This document shows, piece by piece, positions 16,910 through 31,000 of a stretch of 64,000 nucleotides of DNA (the stretch's first letter is position 1; each line of letters opens with the position of its first letter). This DNA is from Saccharibacillus sacchari DSM 19268 (lineage in GTDB: Bacteria; Bacillota; Bacilli; Paenibacillales; Paenibacillaceae). The stretch lies in NCBI RefSeq assembly GCF_000585395.1, contig NZ_KK073875.1, positions 5,887,631 to 5,951,630 on the forward strand, read 5' to 3'. The notes under the pieces are model-generated. The model did no database searches. It was not told the origin of the DNA and saw only the letters and a program-made list of their open reading frames with translations. The position numbers were made by a program, and so were the translations under genes.

Positions 16910-17470
16910 TTATGCTTCCGAAACTTCAATCCGCGGATTCATGCCGAATGATCGTTTCGCGGCCTCCGCGGTCTGTTCGACAAGCTGTAAAACCAGTCCC
17001 AGCGACGCCGTTTGCAACGCTTGATAAGGCTTGGGGCCATGACTGTTAACGACCGCCGCGATGCTGTAGTGGCCCACCGGAGCAAACGAGCCTTTCATCG
17101 CCCCTGCAGGTGTTAAAGCGCTTCGGGTCGCTATTATTTTCCCGATCGATCCAGGTTTCCCCAAACAGGCATCAAACGCGACAATGGTCAGTCCATCCGG
17201 TAGCGCAGATACAATCTTCTCCAGGTTAGTCGCATCGCAAGGATCTTCCAATGTGCCGACAACGCGCGGAAATCCTGCGGCTTGCAATCGGCTGCCCACG
17301 AGCGGACCAAAAGCATCGCCGCTTGAGCGGTCCGTGCCTATACATAAAAATAGAAGTTCGTCCGGGCGATAACTTGCCGCGACTTCCGCAAACAGTTCAC
17401 GGAAATCCGCAAAGCGATCCGCCCGCCTCTCCTCGCCGGTCTTAGCCCATACCGATTCGCTTATACTCAC
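16910..17470 (-). CDS. yyaC: spore protease YyaC family protein
   Basis: A protein of 186 residues in the YyaC/GPR-like family of sporulation proteins. Diagnostic segments are FLCIGTDRSSGDAFGPLVGSRL (near 41-62), DPCDATNL and VAFDACLGKPGSIG. The fold resembles that of hydrogenase-maturation-type aspartic peptidases. In spore formers such genes are expressed during sporulation; here no forespore promoter was identified. The start codon is GTG, with AGGTGGG 8 nt upstream. It is the main direct evidence in the window for an endospore former. Confidence 0.85.
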   Translation of the reverse strand: MSISESVWAKTGEERRADRFADFRELFAEVAASYRPDELLFLCIGTDRSSGDAFGPLVGSRLQAAGFPRVVGTLEDPCDATNLEKIVSALPDGLTIVAFDACLGKPGSIGKIIATRSALTPAGAMKGSFAPVGHYSIAAVVNSHGPKPYQALQTASLGLVLQLVEQTAEAAKRSFGMNPRIEVSEA

Positions 17471-18003: not shown

Positions 18004-18164
18004 GCTTTTCCTTGCTTCCGAAATTCAAGCTTACGCCTGCTCTATACCGCACCGCTCTCCATGTTTCAGGGTGAAAGAGGACGTTTATATAGCAATTAAG
18101 AGCGGCTGCGCAACTGGACCAAGACCAGGCGCAAGCGAGAAAGCCGGGAGCGGAGGTGAGCCGG

Positions 18165-18422
18165 ATGTGGGGAGTGGTGATTAGCCTGATTATGGCGATC
18201 GTCATCGGATTTATCGGAAATGCGTTGGCTGACAACAGGATGCCAGGTGGAATCATTGGGGCTGCCGTTGCCGGGCTTGCCGGAGCTTGGATTGGCAATC
18301 TGCTGTTTGGTAGTTTCGGTCCTAACATTGCAGGCTTCGCCATTATCCCGGCTATACTCGGAACGGCGATCTTCGTTTTGATTCTCGGTCTCATTGCTAC
18401 ACTGTTCAGGCGCGCAGCTTAG
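18165..18422 (+). CDS. GlsB/YeaQ/YmgE-family small membrane protein
   Basis: A hydrophobic protein of 85 residues with three membrane helices and the Gly-rich pattern GGIIGAAVAGLAGAWIGNLLFG typical of the GlsB/YeaQ/YmgE (transglycosylase-associated) family, often general-stress proteins. The ATG at 18165 has GGAGG 8 nt upstream. Upstream, GTTTCA-N14-GTTTAT (18064-18089) is at most a weak sigma-B-like match. Confidence 0.85.
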   Translation: MWGVVISLIMAIVIGFIGNALADNRMPGGIIGAAVAGLAGAWIGNLLFGSFGPNIAGFAIIPAILGTAIFVLILGLIATLFRRAA

Positions 18423-18512: not shown

Positions 18513-19082
18513 ATGAATGAAGCAGAGAGAGATTATCCGGTACAAAGCGGTTCGACTTTTGCAAAGGGTCTTTTGATCGGAGGTCTGATCGGCGCAGCAG
18601 CAGCTCTGCTGTTCGCTCCTAAGCCGGGACGTGACCTTCGCAGCGATATCTCCGATCAAATCGGTGTCGCTACGGACAAAACAAAAGGCGCGGCAAGCAC
18701 AATTGGCCTGAAAGCCAAAGATACCGCTACGGTTGTAGGCGAAAAAGCAAAAACGGCAACCACGGTCGTCAGCGACAAAGCGAAAGCCGCAGCTGAAATC
18801 GTAAGCGATAAAGCGACTACATTGGCTCAATCGGTTTCCGAAAAAACATCCAACGTCGTTCAATCCGTACGCAAAAACAGCGCCGACGTTGCCGAATCCG
18901 TAAAAGAAGCTTCGGCCGATGTGGGCGAAACGGTAAAAGCCGCTTCTGCCGACGTTGCAAACGAAGCCGCAAAAGCGGACAAGGAAATCATGAAAGAAAC
19001 GGCTGACAAGGCGGAAGAAACGAAGAATGAAATCAAATCGTTGAATTCCGGTTCGCCAACAGGCGAAAAACCTGTCCTGTAA
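18513..19082 (+). CDS. YtxH-domain protein with LEA-like repeats
   Basis: A protein of 189 residues. The N-terminus has one hydrophobic Gly/Ala segment (FAKGLLIGGLIGAAAALLFAPKPGRDLR), the hallmark of YtxH proteins. From about residue 50 the chain is made of repeated Ala/Lys/Val-rich 11-mer-like units (VSDKAKAAAEIVSDKATTLAQ), which resemble late-embryogenesis-abundant (LEA group 3-like) amphipathic helices. YtxH proteins in B. subtilis are general-stress proteins under sigma-B/sigma-H. GAGGAG lies upstream of the ATG. It sits next to the sigB operon, in the convergent direction. Confidence 0.85.
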   Translation: MNEAERDYPVQSGSTFAKGLLIGGLIGAAAALLFAPKPGRDLRSDISDQIGVATDKTKGAASTIGLKAKDTATVVGEKAKTATTVVSDKAKAAAEIVSDKATTLAQSVSEKTSNVVQSVRKNSADVAESVKEASADVGETVKAASADVANEAAKADKEIMKETADKAEETKNEIKSLNSGSPTGEKPVL

Positions 19083-19772: not shown

Positions 19773-20546
19773 TCATAACGAGGAAGAATTGGACATGATC
19801 TGCTTAAGCTTTTCTGTGGCCCGTTTTTGAATTCGGGACACGCTCATTTGGGAAACGCCAAGCTTTTGCGCAATGGCACGCTGCGACTGACCTTCCTGGA
19901 AGGCGAGCAGCAGCACTTTCTGCTCCTGCTCCTTCAACTGGCTAAGCGCCTGTTGAAGGTCCATGCGCCGTTCGACAGTATCATAGTCGTTGACGTCCGA
20001 ACTAATCAACTCGCCGAGCGTTGCTGCGCTTTCCTCTTGAGAAAGCGGAGAATCGAGAGAAACGTAATGGTAGCATTCGCGTCCAGCCAACACTTCCACG
20101 GTTTCTTCGACGCTCAAATCAAGATATTGCGCGATTTCTTTGACATCGGGTGAACGCTCCAGACGAACCGTCAATTCGTCGATCGCCTGCTGAACAAGCG
20201 CTCCTTTTTCCTTGATTCGTCTCGGCACCTGTATGTACCATGATTTGTCTCGCAAAAAGTTCTTCATATGCCCGATCATACTTTTCATCGCATAGGGCTC
20301 AAAAGGAATCCCCAATTGAATGTCATACTGTTGAAGCAGGCGAATCAATGCCATTTGACCAACCTGATACAAGTCTTCGTAAAGATCAGGCCGATTTCTG
20401 GCAATCTTGCCTGCGGCCATCTTCACCATCGGTTCATACTTTTTGATCAGTACCGTGGCGATTTCGTTGTCCTTGGTCTGCTGATATTCCCAAATCAAGG
20501 ACACCGCTTCGGACATGGATTCAGGCGGGGTCACTTTATCATTCAT
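19773..20546 (-). CDS. sigB: RNA polymerase sigma-B factor
   Basis: A protein of 257 residues of the sigma-B/F/G type with regions 2, 3 and 4. Region 2 includes YEDLYQVGQMALIRLLQQYD and VPRRIKEKG. The region 4 helix-turn-helix is SQRAIAQKLGVSQMSVSRIQKRA. It directs RNA polymerase to general-stress promoters (GTTTAA-N13/14-GGGTAA/T in B. subtilis). It overlaps rsbW by 4 bp in the order rsbV-rsbW-sigB, which identifies it as sigma-B rather than the sporulation sigma-F (whose partners are spoIIAA/spoIIAB). Candidate promoters matching its consensus occur at 29.5-31.0 kb. Confidence 0.92.
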   Translation of the reverse strand: MNDKVTPPESMSEAVSLIWEYQQTKDNEIATVLIKKYEPMVKMAAGKIARNRPDLYEDLYQVGQMALIRLLQQYDIQLGIPFEPYAMKSMIGHMKNFLRDKSWYIQVPRRIKEKGALVQQAIDELTVRLERSPDVKEIAQYLDLSVEETVEVLAGRECYHYVSLDSPLSQEESAATLGELISSDVNDYDTVERRMDLQQALSQLKEQEQKVLLLAFQEGQSQRAIAQKLGVSQMSVSRIQKRATEKLKQIMSNSSSL

Positions 20547-20998
20547 ACTTTCTCCTCACTCCTGGTGAGACGCTTGGTCAAAACGACCTGCGTTCCTTTT
20601 CCGCTCTCGCTGGCAACGTTAACGTCGTCCATGAGAGCTTGCATCAGATAGAAACCAAGACCGCCGATTTCCACATCATGCAAATCTTTGTCGTGCAGCG
20701 TAGGGGCAGTATCGGAAGGTTCGTTGCCCGGCAACGAGAAGCTTACGCCTTCATCCTTGACTGTAATCGTAAGTTCTTCTCTGGTAACGCCAAAGACAAC
20801 TTCCACTAATCCTCCTTCCTGTCCGTACGCATATAAAACTGAGTTATTGCAAGCTTCCGACACGGCAACTTTCATATCCTCGATGTCTTCATAGGAAAAG
20901 CCCATCTTGGACGCGATGCCGTACAGGTTCAGCCGTACAATATCCACGTAGTCGGCGGTAGCCGGTAAGTTGAGGGTAACGGTTTGATCTGCTTTCAT
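20543..20998 (-). CDS. rsbW: anti-sigma-B factor, serine kinase RsbW
   Basis: A GHKL-fold kinase of 151 residues. The N-box AVSEACNNSVLYAY (near 45-58), the G1 motif DEGVSF (near 82) and the GGLGFYLM segment (near 112) form the ATP site. In the partner-switching scheme RsbW holds sigma-B inactive and phosphorylates RsbV. Its stop overlaps the sigB start by 4 bp, giving translational coupling of sigma factor and anti-sigma factor. Confidence 0.93.
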   Translation of the reverse strand: MKADQTVTLNLPATADYVDIVRLNLYGIASKMGFSYEDIEDMKVAVSEACNNSVLYAYGQEGGLVEVVFGVTREELTITVKDEGVSFSLPGNEPSDTAPTLHDKDLHDVEIGGLGFYLMQALMDDVNVASESGKGTQVVLTKRLTRSEEKV

Positions 20999-21016
20999 GC
21001 GTTGTTCGATCCTTTC

Positions 21017-21355
21017 CTATTGGGAATTCTCTTGGGGTTCAAAAAATTTGGCGATGCCTGTCATGTCGAACAGCTTTTGAATTTGTGTCGGCACTTCTTC
21101 TACGCTGAACGAAGCGTTCACGGAATGCCGTGCTTTCAAAATGGACAACAGAATCCCAATCCCCGTACTGTCGATATACTTCAATTCTTTCAAATTGATG
21201 GCCAAGTCGACCTTGGAATCCCCTACAAGCGGCTCCATGACAAGACGAAAATCCGGTGCTACGGATAAATCGAGTTCCCCACTCAGGTATACCGTATTTT
21301 TTCCTTCTTCAGAAACCGTTCTAGCATTGAACTTGTCGTTTTTATTTGTGGTCAT
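21017..21355 (-). CDS. rsbV: anti-anti-sigma-B factor RsbV (STAS domain)
   Basis: A STAS-domain protein of 112 residues. The phosphorylatable Ser is Ser63 in LKYIDSTGIGIL. When dephosphorylated it should bind RsbW and free sigma-B. AGGGAG lies 7 nt before the ATG at 21355; the ATG at 21361 is too close to it, so translation should start at MTTNKNDKF. The upstream gene ends 118 bp away. Only a weak sigma-B-like sequence is seen between them (GGGAAT with a poor -35), so autoregulation is not certain. Confidence 0.92.
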   Translation of the reverse strand: MTTNKNDKFNARTVSEEGKNTVYLSGELDLSVAPDFRLVMEPLVGDSKVDLAINLKELKYIDSTGIGILLSILKARHSVNASFSVEEVPTQIQKLFDMTGIAKFFEPQENSQ

Positions 21356-21472
21356 AGACATTCTCCCTAAAAAAATGTTTTCTAAGCTTATTAAACATAA
21401 ACCAAGCGATTGAAACGAAAGCCGACAGATCCATTCCCGCAAGCCGCAGCCCGAAAAGACACTTGTACCGCT

Positions 21473-23131
21473 TTAATGAGCGGCTTTTTTTATCGGATAA
21501 CCACGGTATGCGGACAAGTGACGCGCAATCACTTGCTTGATTCCGGCCATCTTGACCGGTTTGCTGATGTAATCGTCCATCCCGGCTTCAAGGCAGCGCG
21601 ACTGAATGTCGTTCATCACGTTCGCCGTCATCGCTACGATCACGGGACCTGCTCCCGCCGGGAACCGTTCCCGAATTTTTCTCGTTGCTTCGATACCGTC
21701 CATCACAGGCATTTGCAAATCCATGAATACATAATCATAAGACTGGTCATCCAACATCTGAAGGGCCTGTTCTCCGTCTTCCGCGGCTGCGGCAGACACA
21801 TCCATCTTGCCTAACATGCTGAGCATCAGCTTACGGTTAACGGGGTGGTCGTCCACAATCAATACGGATGCGGGAACCGCCATTTCCTCATGCAGTACGT
21901 TCAAGGCTTCGTTTCGAAACGGACTGGGCTCTTCGGGTTGAAAAGCTTGAACCTGGATCGTGAAGACGAAAGTAGCTCCTCCTTCGTCCATGGCCTCGAC
22001 AGAAATATCGCCGCCCATCATTTCGACCAACGTTTTGCAAATGGCCAAGCCAAGTCCCGTACCGCCATACTTTCGAGTCATGGAAGAATCGAGCTGAGAG
22101 AACGGTTGGAACAAACGATGGACTTTTTCGGGCGAAATGCCGATTCCCGTGTCCTTAACCGCAAATTCCAACGTCAATCGGTCGTCTTCTTCTGCTCGTT
22201 TGGATACGACCAGGTAAATGCCGCCTTGATCGGTAAACTTCACGGCATTCGCCACTAGGTTAATCAGCACCTGCCGCAAACGGGTCATGTCGCCGTATAA
22301 GAGCTCCGGCACCGACTCCTCCGTAAAGTATACCATCTCTAAGTTCTTTCGAGTCGTTTCCATCGTAAACAGATTAAAAACTTCGCTAATGCATGTTTTC
22401 AGTTCAAAAGGATGCTCTTCAAGCTCCATCTTGCCGGATTCCATTTTGGTGAAGTCCAAGATATCGTTGATGACCGTTACGAGTGCATCCGCACTGCCGC
22501 GGATAATCTCCGTGTACTCCTTTTGTTCCGGCTTCAGTTCTGTCTCCATCAACAAGTCGATCATACCGATAACCCCATTCATCGGCGTGCGAATTTCATG
22601 GCTCATCATGGCCAGGAACTCCGTTTTCGCCTTGGCTGCGATCTCGGCCGCTTCTTTCGCCTTGACCAGCTCTTCGTTGATCTTCTCCAACTCTTGCGTC
22701 TTCTGATGCAGGAGCGTGGTCTGATCCTTCAGACGCTTATTGGCCAAATACATGCTAACGAACCCCTCAATTTTTGATTTCAAAATTTGGGGGATGAACG
22801 GTTTTACCATATAATCGATCGCGCCCGCGGAGTAGCCCGCAAACAAATGCTCGGATTCCTTGCTGTTGGCCGAGATAAAGATGATCGGAATATCTTTTGT
22901 TTTTTCTCTGGCCTTGACGAGCTTTGCAGTCTCGATGCCATCCATGCCCGGCATCTGCACATCGAGCACAATAACCGCAAATTCGTCTTTCAGCAGGCAG
23001 CGAAGCGCTTCTTCGCCCGAAGTCGCCTTCACAAGCGTATAGCGCTCACTCCCCAAAACGGCTTCCAAAGCGAGCAAGTTCTCCGGACGGTCGTCGACCA
23101 GCAGGATATGAATGGGCTCTTGAACCACCAT
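21473..23131 (-). CDS. hybrid histidine kinase, receiver-HisKA-HATPase-receiver
   Basis: A cytoplasmic protein of 552 residues without a sensor or membrane domain. Receiver 1 has its phosphoryl-accepting Asp57 ([12 protein letters not shown]) and Lys110. A coiled coil spans about 130-170. The HisKA box has His178 (MMSHEIRTP). The ATPase has the N-box ([12 protein letters not shown]), G1 (DTGIGIS, 327) and G2 (GGTGLGL, 356). Receiver 2 has Asp471 ([11 protein letters not shown]). The N-terminal receiver suggests that another kinase controls it. It is 19 bp downstream of the CheR-type gene and upstream of rsbV, so it probably belongs to the stress-sensing module. The B. cereus RsbKYM set has no such protein that I know of. 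Confidence 0.9.
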
Positions 23132-23149
23132 GGAATCCCCCTACGCTTT

Positions 23150-24019
23150 CTATTTAATCTTCCGGTAGATCTTCTCGACCCGATCCAGCGGCTCATAACA
23201 GTCACTGAATTGAGTGAAATGAATAGACTCTTTCGAACCGAGAACCAAAATGCCGAAACGGCTGAGGCTCTCATAAAAAAGTCCATGTACCTGATCCCGG
23301 AGCGTATCATTGAAATAAATCATAACGTTCCGGCAAAAGATGACGTTAAATTCATTAAAGGAACGGTCGGTTGCCAGATTATGCTCGGCAAAGATGATGT
23401 TTTTACGCAGATAAGGTTGAAGCATGACCGAATTGTACTTGGCGGTGTAGTAGTCCGAAAAAGACTGCGTACCTCCGGCTTCCAAATAATTTTTCGTGTA
23501 TAGCTTCATTTTCTCGATCCCGTAAATCCCTTCTTTGGCCTGCTTAAGCGAACGGTCGTTCATGTCAGTGGCATAAATGCGCGCCTTGTCGTACAATCCC
23601 TCTTCATGCAGCAGGATCGCCATGGAATAGACTTCTTCTCCCGTCGAACAACCGGCGTGCCAGATTCGGATGTACGGATAAGTTCGCAGGATCGGAACAA
23701 CTTCGCGGCGAAACGTACGGAACAATTCAGGATCGCGAAACATTTCGGTGACCGGGATCGAAAGGCTCTGCACCATGCGCTCGAAACAGGATCGATCGTG
23801 CAGTACTTTATTTTGAAGCTGGGAGATCGTATCGAGGTTCTCCGCGTGTACATGATGCCAAATCCGACGCATGAGCGACGGCTTGGCGTAATTCCGAAAG
23901 TCGTATCCGTATAATCGGTGAACCCCTTCAAGCAGAAGATCCGCTTCAATGGTCTCGCGCTCGCTTAAGTCGGAACCGTTTTCCGGTATAGTCGTTTCCT
24001 GAAATCCATCGAATGTCAT
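23150..24019 (-). CDS. rsbM: CheR-type methyltransferase, probable RsbM
   Basis: A protein of 289 residues with both CheR parts: an N-terminal helical domain (to about 105, ending SIPVTEMFRDPELF) and a SAM-binding domain with motif I IRIWHAGCSTGEEVYS (near 118-132) and the FCRNVMIYF motif (near 232). No chemoreceptor genes are nearby. In the B. cereus group RsbM, a CheR-like enzyme, methylates the hybrid kinase RsbK and damps the sigma-B response (established for that group). Here the gene sits directly after the large hybrid kinase gene and in the sigB neighbourhood, so the same role is inferred. Confidence 0.82.
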   Translation of the reverse strand: MTFDGFQETTIPENGSDLSERETIEADLLLEGVHRLYGYDFRNYAKPSLMRRIWHHVHAENLDTISQLQNKVLHDRSCFERMVQSLSIPVTEMFRDPELFRTFRREVVPILRTYPYIRIWHAGCSTGEEVYSMAILLHEEGLYDKARIYATDMNDRSLKQAKEGIYGIEKMKLYTKNYLEAGGTQSFSDYYTAKYNSVMLQPYLRKNIIFAEHNLATDRSFNEFNVIFCRNVMIYFNDTLRDQVHGLFYESLSRFGILVLGSKESIHFTQFSDCYEPLDRVEKIYRKIK

Positions 24020-24082
24020 AGGTTCAACCTCAGCTTATCTAAAAATCGTGTTTAATCTTTGTTTATTACCCAAAATTTTCGT

Positions 24083-27000
24083 TTACGAATACAACCAAAC
24101 GCGCATCAACGAAAGAAGCTGTTCCGTTTGTATCGGTTTTTTAACATAATCGGATGCTCCGGCCTCGATACACTTGCTTCGATCTTCTTTCATCGCCTTC
24201 GCCGTCAACGCAATGATCGGAATCCGCTCGAACTCGGGCAGCTGCCGAATTCGGCGCATCGCTTCGTAACCGTCCATCTCCGGCATCATCATATCCATCA
24301 AAATCAAGTCGAAATCTTGATGATTTTCGAGAATTTCAAGCGCCTCGCGCCCGTTCTCGGCAAAGGTCACATCCATTCGGTAACCTTCGAGCACGCTCGA
24401 TAACGCGAATACGTTTCGCACGTCATCGTCGACGAGAAGAATTTTCTTTCCTTCGAACAGCGTTTCTTTGTTATGCAGCTTTTGAAGGATTTTCCGCTTG
24501 TCTTCCGGCAAGTCGGCTTCGACGCGATGCAGGAACAACGTGGTCTCGTCGAGCAAGCGTTCCGGAGATTTGACGTCTTTGACGATGATGGATTCCGCGT
24601 ATTGCCGCAGTTTGGTTTCTTCTTTGGCATCGAGGTCTTTGCCGGTATAAATGATGATCGGCAGGTCGCGCAGGCGTTCGTCTTCGCGAATCCGATCCAG
24701 CATCTCGAACCCGGTCATATCGGACAGCATCAGGTCCAATACCATGCAGTCGTAATGATGACGCTGCAATTCTTCCAGCGCTTGCGTTCCGGTCGCTACG
24801 GCTTTGATCGCCACGTCGTCGTGTCCGATCAACTCGATGATGGCATGGCGCTGCACGTCGTCGTCCTCGACGATCAGCAGATGCTTGAGTCCTTTGTCCG
24901 CGTACGAACCGATGGAGGAAAAGGCCCGTTCCAGCCCTTCTTTGTCGGCCGGTTTTTTCAGATAGGCGATTGCGCCCATCATCAATCCCTGCTTCACGTC
25001 ATCGACGACGGATACGACATGGACCGGAATATGACGCGTCTCGGAGCTGCTTTTCAGCTCGCTCAAGATCGTCCAACCGTCGATTACCGGAAGCTGGATA
25101 TCAAGAATGATCGCATCCGGCATGCGGCTGCGCGCCGTTTCGAGACCGGTATCGCCTTGTACCTCGACAATCGCTTTGTAGCCGTTGCCGCGCGCCATGT
25201 CGCGCAGAATGACGGCGAATTTCGGATCGTCTTCGATGATCAGCAGCACTTTGTCATGCGGGTTCACGCTATCGCGATCGTCTTCGATCTCCGGACGGTG
25301 CGGTTTTGGCGCGATCGGTTCGACCGCCGCCGGCTTGCCGCGCTTCGATATCAATCGTTCGTCTGCATCCGGTTGAAGAACCTGCATTGCGGCGTTGGTT
25401 TTATCCACCGAATCTTCCCCGGACGCGTAAGTGGTCAACTTCGGCACGTAAAGCGTGAAGCGGCTGCCTCTGCCGTCTTCGCTTTCAAGCTCGATGCCGC
25501 CTCCGAGCAGCTTCGCCAGTTCGCGGCTGATCGAAAGTCCCAGGCCGGTGCCGCCGTATTTGCGGCTGGTCGTGCCGTCGACTTGTTGGAAAGCTTCGAA
25601 TACGATATCCGTTTTATCCTGCGGAATGCCGATGCCGGTATCGATAACGGAAAATTCGATAAATTTCCGCTTTTTCTCCAAATGCTCCGGCAAATGTTCG
25701 GGCTTCGCTTCTTGAACCTGGAAGGTTACCGAGCCTTCTGAAGTGAATTTGAATGCGTTGGACAGCAAGTTGCGCAGCACTTGTTTGAGTCGATGCCCGT
25801 CGGTCAGCAGCGTGCTCGGCAAATGGGCCGTATCGACTTCGATGTTCAAATCGATGCCTTTTTTCTCCGCGACCGCCGAGAAATTGTTGGCGACGAACGT
25901 CGTGATTTCATCAAATTCTACCGGTTCGCGATTTAATTCCATCTTACCTGCGTCCACTTTGGACAAATCCAAAATTTCGTCGATCATTTTGAGCAAATCG
26001 GCACCGGACATGTAGATCGTCTGCGCGTATTCCACTTGCTTCGGTTCCAGGTTGCCTTGTTTATTTTCCGCAAGCAGCTGCGACAAAATCAGCAAACTAT
26101 TTAGCGGCGTGCGAAGCTCATGCGACATATTGGCCAAAAACTCGGATTTGTATTTGCTTGATACCGCCAACTGCATCGTCTGGCGCTCCAGCTGTACCCG
26201 GGCATGCTCGACTTCGCGGTTTTTTTCTTCCGTCTCATGCACTTGTTCTTCCAAAGCGCGGGTCTTGGCGATCAACTCGGTATTGAAATGTTCGAGTTCT
26301 TCTTGCTGACGCTGGAGCAGTTCTTCGGATCGTTTAAGCGCGTCGGTTTGCGATTCGAGGCTTTCGTTCGAACGTTTGAGTTCTTCCTGCTGCGTCTGAA
26401 GTTCTTCCGATTGACATTGAAGTTCTTCGGTCAGCGCCTGCGACTCGCGCAGCAATTCTTCGACGCGCAGGCGTCCGTTGATGTTGTTCAAGATGACGCC
26501 CAGGTTGGTCATCAACTGATCAAGCAATTGGCGCTGAAGTTCGTTGAACGGCGTGAGGGAAGCGATTTCGAACACGCCGATGAGTTCGCCTTCCGCCAAA
26601 ATCGGATGAATCAGGATTTGCGCGGAACGGCTTTCGCCGAGTGCGGAGTGAATATGAATGTACTGTTGGGACGCTTCTTCCAGCACGATGATCCGACGGT
26701 CCGCCGCGCTTTGCCCAAGCAGCCCTTCGCCTACTTCGAACGAAGATTTGGATTTGGACGTTTTTCTATCCGCAAAAGCGTACGTGCCGTACAAACTCAT
26801 TTCGTTCGGATTTTTCACGTCGGCCAAATACAAAGCTCCGTACTCGGCTCCCAACACGGGCGTGAACTCGCTGACGAATGTTTGCGACACCTTTTCCAGA
26901 GACATGATTCCTTTCAATACATCGGTGATCCGGGCCATGTTCGAATTGATCCAGGCTTGATTGTTTTGCGCTTCCGCGTAAGCCCGTTCGATCGCCTGCT

Positions 27001-27775
27001 TTTCTTCGATATCCTCGGCCATCTGCTGGAACACGAGCGCTACGCTGCCGATCTCGTCCTTAGACTTGACTTTAATGCGGCGAATCGCTTTTAAACGACC
27101 TTTTCCGAAGCTTGAAATCATCATGGAAACGGTATTCAGCCCTCGGGTCACGCTAGGAACGATCCACATCATGATGCCTAATCCCAGAATGAGGCCTACC
27201 GCAAGAAATGCCGTCGTGATCTGCGTGGAACGCGTATAAGCTTCTTTGACCGCATCGACTTCCGACTCGACTTGCAGATCCTGATAGCTCGCCAGTTCGT
27301 TGATGGAACTCAATGCCGCACGCTGCAACTCGATGCCGGCGGAATTCCGATAAGCCAAAGCTTCCGCCGTTTCTCCGTTTTCGAGCAGTTGCATCAAATC
27401 AGCTTCGTACTTGGAGAAGTTTTCCCAACTTGTTCCCACGTTTTGCACGAGACGCCTTTCTTCCGCCGAGCCCGTCTCGGACGTAATCGAGTCCCAATAA
27501 CGTTCCGCGCGTTCTTTGGAATTTTCGATAAACAGCCGGCTTTCCGAGAGATTCGATGACTGCCCGCCTAACAGCTGCCCCGCCAACTCTGTAGCAATGC
27601 CGTTAATCTCGCCTCTCATCCCGCTGCTATAACGAACTTTCAAATAACGCTCCTGATAAACACGGTCGATCTGATCGTTCATGTAGCTCATTCGGTCGTA
27701 GCTCGCTAACGACAACGACAACATAATGAGGAGGAGTGCGGAAAAACCGATGACCAGCTTGGCCTTTATTTTCAT
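24083..27775 (-). CDS. rsbK: large hybrid sensor histidine kinase, probable RsbK
   Basis: A protein of 1230 residues. TM1 (8-25) and TM2 (186-206) flank a helical extracytoplasmic sensor (about 28-185; CHASE3 or four-helix-bundle type). A HAMP domain (about 207-262), a GAF domain (about 285-430) and a Glu/Gln-rich coiled coil (about 435-540) follow. The HisKA box has His552 (NMSHELRTP); the ATPase has [18 protein letters not shown] and GGTGLGL (741). Then come three receivers with Asp892, Asp1014 and Asp1161. The last one is the most canonical (LVDDD...[11 protein letters not shown]...KKP). It begins 1 bp after the RsbY-like gene. B. cereus RsbK has the same two-TM, sensor and GAF layout but fewer receivers, as far as I recall. 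The coiled coil with paired Glu/Gln residues is a plausible target for the neighbouring methyltransferase. Confidence 0.87.
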
Positions 27776-28939
27776 TTACTCAGCCGCTCCTTCTTTCAAT
27801 GAAATCCATACCAGACATTTGTCGTCGTCTTGCTCGGCATCGGGTTCGCCCACGAAAAACGTCTCTTCCATGCGAGGTTTATCGAAGGCGTGTCCCCCTT
27901 TAAGGTGAGAAACAAGAAATGCCAACTGATCTTCCTGTTCGCCGTCCACTGCTTCAAGCAATCCGTCGGTGTAAAGGACCAGATGGCTTTCGTCTTCGTA
28001 AGAAACGGTTTGCGGTTCCGCATCGATTCGGTCAAACAATCCTACCGGGTGGGAAGAACGCTCCAACTTGACCACTTCTTCGCCGCGGAACAACAGTCCC
28101 GGAGGATGACCCGCGTTTACATAATCGATTCGCTTGAAACGAGTATCGACGACCATGTAAATGGCGGTGAAGTAATACTGAATCAATTGATTTTCGATAT
28201 GCAATTGATTGAAGCGACGGTTCAGCTCCTGAATGACTTTTTCCGGGTCCACATAGGTCACGACCGTATCTTTCAGTACCGAAGCGATAAACATGGTAAA
28301 CAACGACGAAGAGATGCCGTGTCCCATCATATCGAGCAAAATGATGCCGTAGCGCCCGTCTCCCAGCGGATACCACGCATACAAGTCTCCGGCCAACTCG
28401 AACGAAGGTTTGTACAGAGCATCGATTCCGATATTCTGGTCGTTGACGGGAAGGCTTAATACGGCGTTTTGAACCATTGCCGCAAGCTTGAGCTCGTCTT
28501 GAATACGCTGATCGCGCTCCTTGTGCCAGTCTTTTTCCTGCTTCAGACGCAAAGCAAGACGAATGCGGGCCATCAGCTCAACTTTATTGATGGGTTTGGT
28601 CACATAGTCGCCTGCCCCGGCATCGAGAGCTTCGGCCAACTTTTTGGAATCGCCTACGGCGGTCACCATAATAATAGGAATATCGCGCAAGTGCTCATAC
28701 GTTTGAACAATACGGCAAGCTTCGATTCCGTCCATCTCCGGCATCATCATGTCCAGCAAAATCAGATCGATGTCCGAATGTTTCGTTTTCACTTGCGGGT
28801 CGAGATCGGCTACTCCAAGAATGGCGAACATTTCCCGGGCGGAAGCCGCAATCTCGATGTTTCGATATTCTTCTTTTTTCAAAATTTCGCGAATAATAAT
28901 GACATTGGTAGGATTGTCGTCGACAACTAGAATCTTCAT
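27776..28939 (-). CDS. rsbY: receiver-PP2C phosphatase, probable RsbY (RsbU/RsbP class)
   Basis: A protein of 387 residues. The N-terminal receiver has Asp63 ([11 protein letters not shown]), Thr92/Ala93 (MVTAVGD) and Lys117. A coiled-coil linker (about 128-150) precedes a SpoIIE-type PP2C domain with the metal motifs FELAGDLY, LLDMMGHGISSS, LYTDGLLEA and the C-terminal EQDDDKC. This architecture is that of B. cereus RsbY, which dephosphorylates RsbV-P when its receiver is phosphorylated by RsbK. It is the first gene of a likely operon with the kinase, methyltransferase and second kinase. AGAGGGAGAGG lies just before the ATG. Confidence 0.9.
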   Translation of the reverse strand: MKILVVDDNPTNVIIIREILKKEEYRNIEIAASAREMFAILGVADLDPQVKTKHSDIDLILLDMMMPEMDGIEACRIVQTYEHLRDIPIIMVTAVGDSKKLAEALDAGAGDYVTKPINKVELMARIRLALRLKQEKDWHKERDQRIQDELKLAAMVQNAVLSLPVNDQNIGIDALYKPSFELAGDLYAWYPLGDGRYGIILLDMMGHGISSSLFTMFIASVLKDTVVTYVDPEKVIQELNRRFNQLHIENQLIQYYFTAIYMVVDTRFKRIDYVNAGHPPGLLFRGEEVVKLERSSHPVGLFDRIDAEPQTVSYEDESHLVLYTDGLLEAVDGEQEDQLAFLVSHLKGGHAFDKPRMEETFFVGEPDAEQDDDKCLVWISLKEGAAE

Positions 28940-30815: not shown

Positions 30816-31000
30816 AAAAGAGAAAATGCATGCGTTACCATACGAGTAAGCATTGTTTCAATATGAAAACGCCAGGTTAATTGGAGTCTACGAGACAACG
30901 GAAACGAAAGCCGAACACGTAACGAATTCCTTCTATTATTAATATAATGCCAAGGATATTCAAAACTTCTTTGCTCCTTTCGATCCCGTCGGGAAAGAAA

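Follow-up and report, generated by a model that had tools for sequence, protein, structure and literature searches.

Two kinases, one of them receiver-led, in a putative sigma-B operon of Saccharibacillus sacchari

In Bacillus cereus, RsbK is a hybrid histidine kinase with the domain order CHASE3, HAMP, GAF, signalling helix, histidine kinase (HK), catalytic ATP-binding domain (CA) and an inhibitory receiver (REC), and RsbM is an orphan methyltransferase (PMC4574943). RsbK transfers phosphate to RsbY (PMC7522486). By orthology, rsbKY and rsbM were also found in Paenibacillus spp., for which two genomes were examined (PMC9847131), and thus the bare idea of an RsbK-RsbY-RsbM-type set is not new. 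In the Lvr system of Leptospira, LvrA phosphorylates the receiver of LvrB and activates it, and LvrB passes the phosphate to a REC-anti-sigma factor (PMC13269768). The passages of PMC9847131 consulted do not mention a second kinase. Here we analysed a 64,000-nucleotide stretch of Saccharibacillus sacchari DSM 19268 (contig NZ_KK073875.1; hereafter the window), in which a three-receiver hybrid kinase, a CheR-type methyltransferase and a second, receiver-led kinase are encoded together with rsbY, rsbV, rsbW and sigB. Most likely, as judged from sequence comparison, the hybrid kinase and the receiver-controlled kinase together phosphorylate RsbY and so free sigma-B. To this explanation as a whole, in which two kinases feed the partner switch of sigma-B, we give a probability of about 0.55. 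Among the titles and abstract openings listed for open-licence PMC papers, none described this operon or a receiver-led kinase that takes part in controlling sigma-B; subscription journals were outside the scope of that search.

The operon runs on the minus strand from 28939 to 19773, and all of its open reading frames (ORFs) are open. The first gene, rsbY (27776..28939), encodes a protein of 387 aa (P0001) with a receiver (D63), a helical linker and a PP2C/SpoIIE phosphatase (Pfam Response_reg and SpoIIE-type PP2C); its residues 55-335 matched P. aeruginosa RssB (3eq2) in phmmer, and its plan agrees with the coiled-coil linker mechanism described for general-stress phosphatases (PMC12143880). 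The hybrid kinase (P0002, 24083..27775, 1230 aa) has a 4HB_MCP sensor, a weak HAMP, GAF, a long coil, HisKA (H552), CA and three receivers, REC1 (D892), REC2 (D1014) and REC3 (D1161). Pfam reported 4HB_MCP_1, GAF, HisKA, HATPase_c and three Response_reg domains in it, while HAMP scored 20.1 bits, under its cut-off of 25. The RsbM-like methyltransferase (P0003, 23150..24019, 289 aa; Pfam CheR_N and CheR) has no adjoining CheB. It is followed by the receiver-controlled histidine kinase (P0004, 21473..23131, 552 aa), in which a receiver (D57), a helix, HisKA (H178), CA (HATPase_c) and a second receiver (D471) were found with Pfam. The last three genes encode an RsbV-like STAS anti-anti-sigma factor (P0005, 21017..21355, 112 aa; Pfam STAS, NCBIfam TIGR00377 above cut-off), the anti-sigma-B kinase RsbW (P0006, 20543..20998, 151 aa; Pfam HATPase_c_2) and a sigma factor of the SigB/SigF/SigG group (P0007, 19773..20546, 257 aa; Pfam sigma-70 regions 2-4 and NCBIfam). 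The rsbV-rsbW-sigB order is thus accompanied by an RsbW equivalog match with one of two NCBIfam models: P0006 passed NF003144 (162.5 against 145) and missed TIGR01924 (138.2 against 155.05). The start of rsbV is most likely the ATG at 21355 (112 aa) and not the TTG at 21442 of the ORF list. With this start, the intergenic gaps are 0, 63, 18, 117, 18 and -4 bases, and therefore they fit one operon with space for a promoter ahead of rsbV.

An earlier note, made from the sequence alone, had listed these seven genes in this order, had seen the kinase-CheR-REC-PP2C set as joined to rsbV-rsbW-sigB, and had named D892, D1014 and D1161 as phospho-acceptors of the hybrid kinase. All of this was confirmed by the open frames, Pfam domains and gene order. 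The range that it gave, 20543..28939, is right for rsbY to rsbW, while sigB (20546-19773) falls just outside it. The note had also inferred the scheme of the B. cereus group, which has no stressosome, and the lack of one was borne out by genome searches for STAS and HATPase_c_2: all four STAS matches fell in frames of other sizes or places (592, 113, 515 and 151 aa, with the one of 113 aa in locus L119, described below), and no RsbT-like protein was found, RsbW being the only small HATPase_c_2 protein in the genome search.

The active sites of the operon are intact. In the hybrid kinase, H552, N673, D712 and G742 are conserved in 50 of 50 relatives, and the REC3 residues D1116, D1117, D1161, T1191 and K1213 in 50 of 50 hybrid kinases. 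The REC1 residues are intact in all 41 hybrid kinases possessing REC1; REC2 is altered in genus g12 and in two members of g6 (genera are numbered here, the genus of the window being g1). D13, D14, D57, S87, K110 and H178 of the second kinase are conserved in 51/51 sequences, and G123, E128, D152 and N231 of CheR in 61/61. In RsbY, D63, T93 and K115 and the PP2C residues D185, D203, D325 and D372 are present in 98/98 proteins, which are 97 rsbW-locus proteins and the other REC-PP2C of this genome, from L119. No dead site was found, and therefore none of the steps proposed in the earlier note is excluded by one.

Like the B. cereus set, the operon encodes a membrane-bound hybrid kinase containing HAMP, GAF, signalling helix, HK, CA and a receiver, an orphan CheR-type methyltransferase and a REC-PP2C protein, with output through RsbV, RsbW and sigma-B. 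As in RsbM, the CheR stands beside the kinase, lacks a CheB and is distinct from chemotaxis CheR. However, B. cereus RsbK has one receiver (D827) and CHASE3, whereas the kinase here has three receivers and 4HB_MCP. CHASE3 is a weak criterion, because RsbY-linked single-receiver kinases show both folds (CHASE3 at locus L279, 4HB_MCP_1 at L264). A receiver-led second kinase is not described in the available accounts of the B. cereus set, whereas one is present here, with all genes in one direction.

The second kinase resembles LvrB in sequence and fold. In an AlphaFold2 model (32 sequences, mean predicted local distance difference test 80.4, predicted template modelling score 0.43), a single helix, residues 114-195, runs from the receiver into the dimerization and histidine phosphotransfer (DHp) domain. 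The top Foldseek matches were ShkA, GacS and LvrB, with low overall template modelling scores; against ShkA and LvrB the root-mean-square deviation was high and the domains were differently placed. The REC-helix-DHp-CA layout, with an intact receiver and histidine, is that of a receiver-controlled kinase of the LvrB type. The earlier note had given this kinase no sensor. It indeed has no classical sensor domain; the signal probably enters through the N-terminal receiver. As in Leptospira, a hybrid kinase and a receiver-controlled kinase are found with a sigma-switch effector that is fused to a receiver. The Lvr effector is a REC-anti-sigma factor, whereas here it is a REC-phosphatase, and the operon adds CheR and the C-terminal receiver of P0004. 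Pfam found no histidine phosphotransfer (Hpt) domain in the seven operon proteins. Since LvrB works by a kinase cascade and the set has no Hpt, a cascade is likelier than an Hpt relay. The branched phosphorelay suggested earlier is weak for the same lack of an Hpt, and because the RsbK receiver of B. cereus inhibits and does not relay (PMC4574943).

To follow the operon through the Paenibacillaceae, we sought RsbW in 118 family genomes and found it in 103; the loci were fetched and annotated using the window's own domains as queries. Family counts exclude L119 and the second-copy loci L144-L147. The full set with the REC-HisKA-REC kinase, in the same order and on one strand, was present at 37 of the 103 rsbW loci. 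This comparison had been proposed in the earlier note, and it rules out that the seven-gene set is chance or a local oddity. By genus, the full set occurred in 11/11 genomes of g1, 11/11 of g7, 10/10 of g13 and 5/10 of g18. A receiver-led kinase lies directly downstream of CheR at 51/103 family loci, and 49/103 have both it and RsbY. We also fetched named loci with a CheR alignment, as the best 80 of at least 589 matches, which are nearest relatives and not a fair sample; all results on named, non-Bacillota and other Bacilli loci below come from these unless stated otherwise. RsbY and the receiver-led kinase were both present at 36 of 42 named Paenibacillaceae loci. At RsbY-bearing loci, the C-terminal receiver of the second kinase was found in 37 family and 25 named cases, every one with a hybrid kinase, an association with few independent losses behind it and with possible overlap in species between the two sets. 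The nearest named relative, in the kinase tree, is Saccharibacillus qingshengii. Locus L154, recorded as Bacillus sp. FJAT-27264, has a full Paenibacillus-type operon with a kinase that falls within Paenibacillus, and its name looks wrong.

Other genera vary in their kinases. In g6, the hybrid kinase has two receivers and the second kinase lacks its C-terminal one in 7/11, while 3/11 lack the hybrid kinase and keep CheR and the second kinase, and G059 shows neither. Four of ten g18 loci have only a receiver-less, kinase-only frame with RsbY (three of these were read), and G055 has none. The second kinase has a longer spacer ahead of HisKA in 4/7 of g12. The seven genomes of g17, with two RsbW matches each, have the kinase and CheR, and the second kinase does not occur. 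No kinase was found within about 20 kb of the locus in g2, g3, g4, g5, g9 and g14.

The hybrid kinase has been lost, with RsbY, CheR and the second kinase kept, at five loci (G024, G069, G106, P. forsythiae and Paenibacillus sp. HW567). The kinase-only frame of the four g18 loci likewise remains with RsbY where the hybrid kinase is missing. For six genes in four pairs of these loci, the ratio of nonsynonymous to synonymous substitution rates (dN/dS) was 0.01-0.18; it was 0.05-0.09 for the second kinase, and for CheR 0.03-0.07 in three g6 pairs and 0.11 between P. forsythiae and HW567 (dS 1.4). By these ratios, purifying selection acts on the second kinase, which outlasts the hybrid kinase at five loci. 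Each kinase occurs with RsbY in the absence of the other, as would be expected if each phosphorylated RsbY alone and the second were switched by an unlinked kinase. The genome of the window also encodes more hybrid kinases whose sensor part is similar. Such parallel inputs are nevertheless improbable in our judgement, and the least favoured of the explanations weighed here: CheR, often CheB, and the receiver-led kinase are found together at 21/30 non-Bacillota and 41/42 named Paenibacillaceae loci, mostly with a hybrid kinase just upstream, which points to a jointly working set. The natural losses of either kinase are a ready set of species for asking which kinase addresses RsbY.

Outside the family, the receiver-led kinase was directly downstream of CheR at 21/30 non-Bacillota loci and 3/8 loci of other Bacilli, compared with 41/42 named Paenibacillaceae loci. 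CheB (queries: two members verified by Pfam; near meaning within 3 kb of CheR) was near CheR at 25/30 non-Bacillota loci and 0/42 named Paenibacillaceae loci, and CheR, CheB and the receiver-led kinase occurred together at 20/30 non-Bacillota loci. RsbY was not found at the 30 non-Bacillota loci, several of which are short contigs where absences carry little weight. The clusters of cyanobacteria, Acidobacteriota and Chloroflexota are like the operon in their REC1-REC2-REC3 order and in a CheR about 56-63% identical; they are unlike it in CheB near CheR, in PAS in the receiver-led kinase (one examined, L191) and in that no RsbY was found. Among Bacilli outside the family, CheR matches with E-values of up to 1e-100 lay at 29 places, of which the analysis covered 21, leaving out the other eight and a weak match in G213. 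Nine of these 21 loci have RsbY without the receiver-led kinase, 11 have the receiver-led kinase without RsbY, and one has neither. This pattern follows the tree, and so it reflects few independent events. Among all these loci, RsbY and the receiver-led kinase are found together only in Paenibacillaceae. At three Bacilli loci (L189, L192 and L277), the gene ahead of a two-receiver kinase linked to CheR is not RsbY but encodes a receiver-led protein, 818-854 aa long. The one examined, at L189, is REC-PAS-GGDEF-EAL-GerE by Pfam, and the CheR-linked module at these loci may feed cyclic di-GMP control.

We then placed the hybrid kinase and CheR in trees. The kinase tree was built from HK and the last receiver of 75 of 125 kinases, with B. 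cereus RsbK itself absent from the rows, and the CheR tree from 67 of 131 CheR, with chemotaxis CheR left out. A split with support 99/89 separated RsbY-linked single-receiver kinases, the g17 kinases and paralogues from g6 and the window's genome from those kinases of Bacilli that have a linked receiver-led kinase, the non-Bacillota kinases and the Paenibacillaceae operon kinases. The RsbY-linked kinase of Cohnella cholangitidis is the exception, as it falls inside the Paenibacillaceae group. The CheR tree has the same split (100/99), and a FastTree of RsbY likewise places the protein of the window apart from its counterparts at the nine RsbY-linked loci. The operon CheR is distinct in a tree from the genome's other CheR, which stands far away, and a chemotaxis origin is ruled out. 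None of the RsbY-linked kinases listed has the spacing of 322 published for B. cereus RsbK (H505-D827). The window's genome has a 912-aa single-receiver hybrid kinase of its own without an adjoining CheR (G000:C1:2017284, L287), which falls near the RsbY-linked kinases on a long branch, and its placement is unsure.

All 24 kinases scored from non-Bacillota loci, one of them from a bacterium without a phylum name, carry the three receivers in the same order, REC1-REC2-REC3. To be scored, a kinase had to have GAF and HK and to end in a REC3-type receiver; Acidobacteria gp5 (L224), in which kinase and receivers lie in two frames, is outside the 24. In eight kinases listed in detail, each receiver gave 101-179 bits with its counterpart and no more than 60 with any other. 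Since this order is common to non-Bacillota, we read the three receivers as ancient and shared, not as an expansion in this lineage. In the trees, the kinase and CheR fall in another lineage than the RsbY-linked single-receiver one, and so the earlier view of a B. cereus scheme that has been expanded is at best partly supported. A tentative extension is that an ancient CheR-linked three-receiver module, which cyanobacteria also have, was plugged into RsbY-RsbV-RsbW-sigB in Paenibacillaceae and brought along the second kinase as phosphate donor of RsbY, and that this two-tier cascade, not RsbK, runs sigma-B; we hold it to be somewhat less likely than not.

Several observations weigh against a two-kinase input. 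RsbY stands with no kinase or CheR found within about 20 kb at 37/103 family loci. The hybrid kinase and CheR occur without the receiver-led kinase at 10/103 family loci and in Cohnella cholangitidis, and because of these loci a series from the hybrid to the second kinase is not obligatory. P0007 scored highest with SigBFG (205.4 against 234.35) and Sigma_B TIGR02941 (203.8 against 315), both under cut-off; since the Sigma_B equivalog cut-off was missed, we call it SigB-like. All five genomes without the operon hybrid kinase hold another hybrid kinase of about 920 aa elsewhere. In G024, G069 and G106 it has no adjoining CheR, while its counterpart in G005 has one. Each of the five genomes has one RsbM-type CheR and a weaker CheR match, and the retained CheR may serve the unlinked kinase in trans. 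We dropped the idea that these operons prove the second kinase to be the CheR substrate, as another hybrid kinase there may be the substrate.

A plain B. cereus scheme is a rival explanation. In it, the hybrid kinase would be RsbK, RsbY would take its phosphate straight from H552, the additional receivers would be inhibitory, and the second kinase would either have no part or modulate. The partner set is the same (kinase, CheR, REC-PP2C and V-W-sigma), rsbKY and rsbM have been reported in Paenibacillus spp. (PMC9847131), and 7/103 family loci, as well as Cohnella cholangitidis, combine hybrid kinase, CheR and RsbY but lack the second kinase. Approximately unbiased (AU) tests did not reject a grouping of the operon kinases with the whole single-receiver side (p 0.13), nor was the widest alternative significant for CheR (p 0.086, superseding a value of 0.006 that had g17 rows on the other side). 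We consider this scheme unlikely in view of the tree splits (99/89 and 100/99), the receiver order common to non-Bacillota, and a second kinase that is kept under purifying selection where the hybrid kinase is gone. Moreover, a grouping of the operon kinases with the nine RsbY-linked kinases alone was rejected (AU p 0.00013; the groups for the AU tests were chosen once a first tree was known). That the hybrid kinase and CheR belong to the three-receiver, receiver-led-kinase lineage and not to the single-receiver RsbY-linked one is partly supported; it rests on the tree splits and receiver order, since the widest AU tests do not reject the alternative.

A two-kinase input might work as follows. 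The membrane-bound, CheR-linked hybrid kinase would sense stress through its 4HB, HAMP and GAF parts, and CheR would methylate its coil and so set the threshold, with no linked CheB to reverse it. Phosphorylation of D57 would switch the soluble second kinase, and the simplest source of this phosphate would be the hybrid kinase, by analogy with LvrA and LvrB. One or both kinases would phosphorylate D63 of RsbY, and the linker helix would then activate the PP2C domain. RsbV-P would be dephosphorylated and RsbW would release sigma-B, which in turn would boost rsbV, rsbW and its own gene through a promoter inside the operon. The operon set very probably controls sigma-B. We lean towards an action of the second kinase on RsbY; the strict order hybrid kinase, second kinase, RsbY is a possibility that we would not bet on. 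If the two-kinase input is true, the genes now labelled rsbKYM in Paenibacillus would belong in part to a different kinase family with the same task, and research on sigma-B would have a tractable example of a receiver-controlled kinase that acts upstream of a phosphatase. A CheR without a linked CheB also raises the question of how methylation serves when no linked esterase reverses it.

The candidate internal sigma-B promoter is at 21391..21416 (minus strand), ahead of rsbV, with the sequence GTTTCA-N14-GTTTAA. The motif was read off by eye from an alignment of rsbV upstream regions from 17 of 21 chosen loci. It was found in 6/6 loci of the window's genus, and GTTTCA-N14-GGGTTA was exact in 7 of 11 loci of other genera and near in 4, the -10 element of the window's genus being a different one. 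The PrsbV of B. subtilis is GTTTAA-N14-GGGTAT (PMC9847131). The promoter pattern was not above chance in the window or genome-wide (24 sites against 20 for the reversed pattern), and prediction of a sigma-B regulon by it was dropped because the genome count was not above this control; the pattern counts here as weak support. Seven of the 24 genome sites have the 14-base spacer. Three of the seven lie inside 13 kb: the 21391 site and two GTTTCA-N14-GKTTAW sites at 18063-18088 and 30855-30880, both on the plus strand, the first ending 67 bases ahead of a Transgly_assoc gene (18156-18422). This gene and those for a YtxH-like protein (18513-19082), a YflT domain (29474-29127) and DUF948 (30718-30197) are general-stress-type genes flanking the operon, of types that we take to be sigma-B regulon members in B. 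subtilis.

A second partner-switch-like locus, L119 (G000:C1:4908100-4928000), lies in the same genome and encodes a REC-PP2C protein of 384 aa, a protein of 695 aa, the STAS frame of 113 aa and a protein of 758 aa that matches HATPase_c_2 near its end. The genome search gave just two proteins with a SpoIIE-domain match, RsbY and the one from L119, and found no small ATPase resembling SpoIIAB. For these reasons, the genome possibly belongs to a non-sporulating lineage, despite a DUF1256 gene (PF06866) at 16910-17470 of the window, which we presume to be the spore-linked YyaC.

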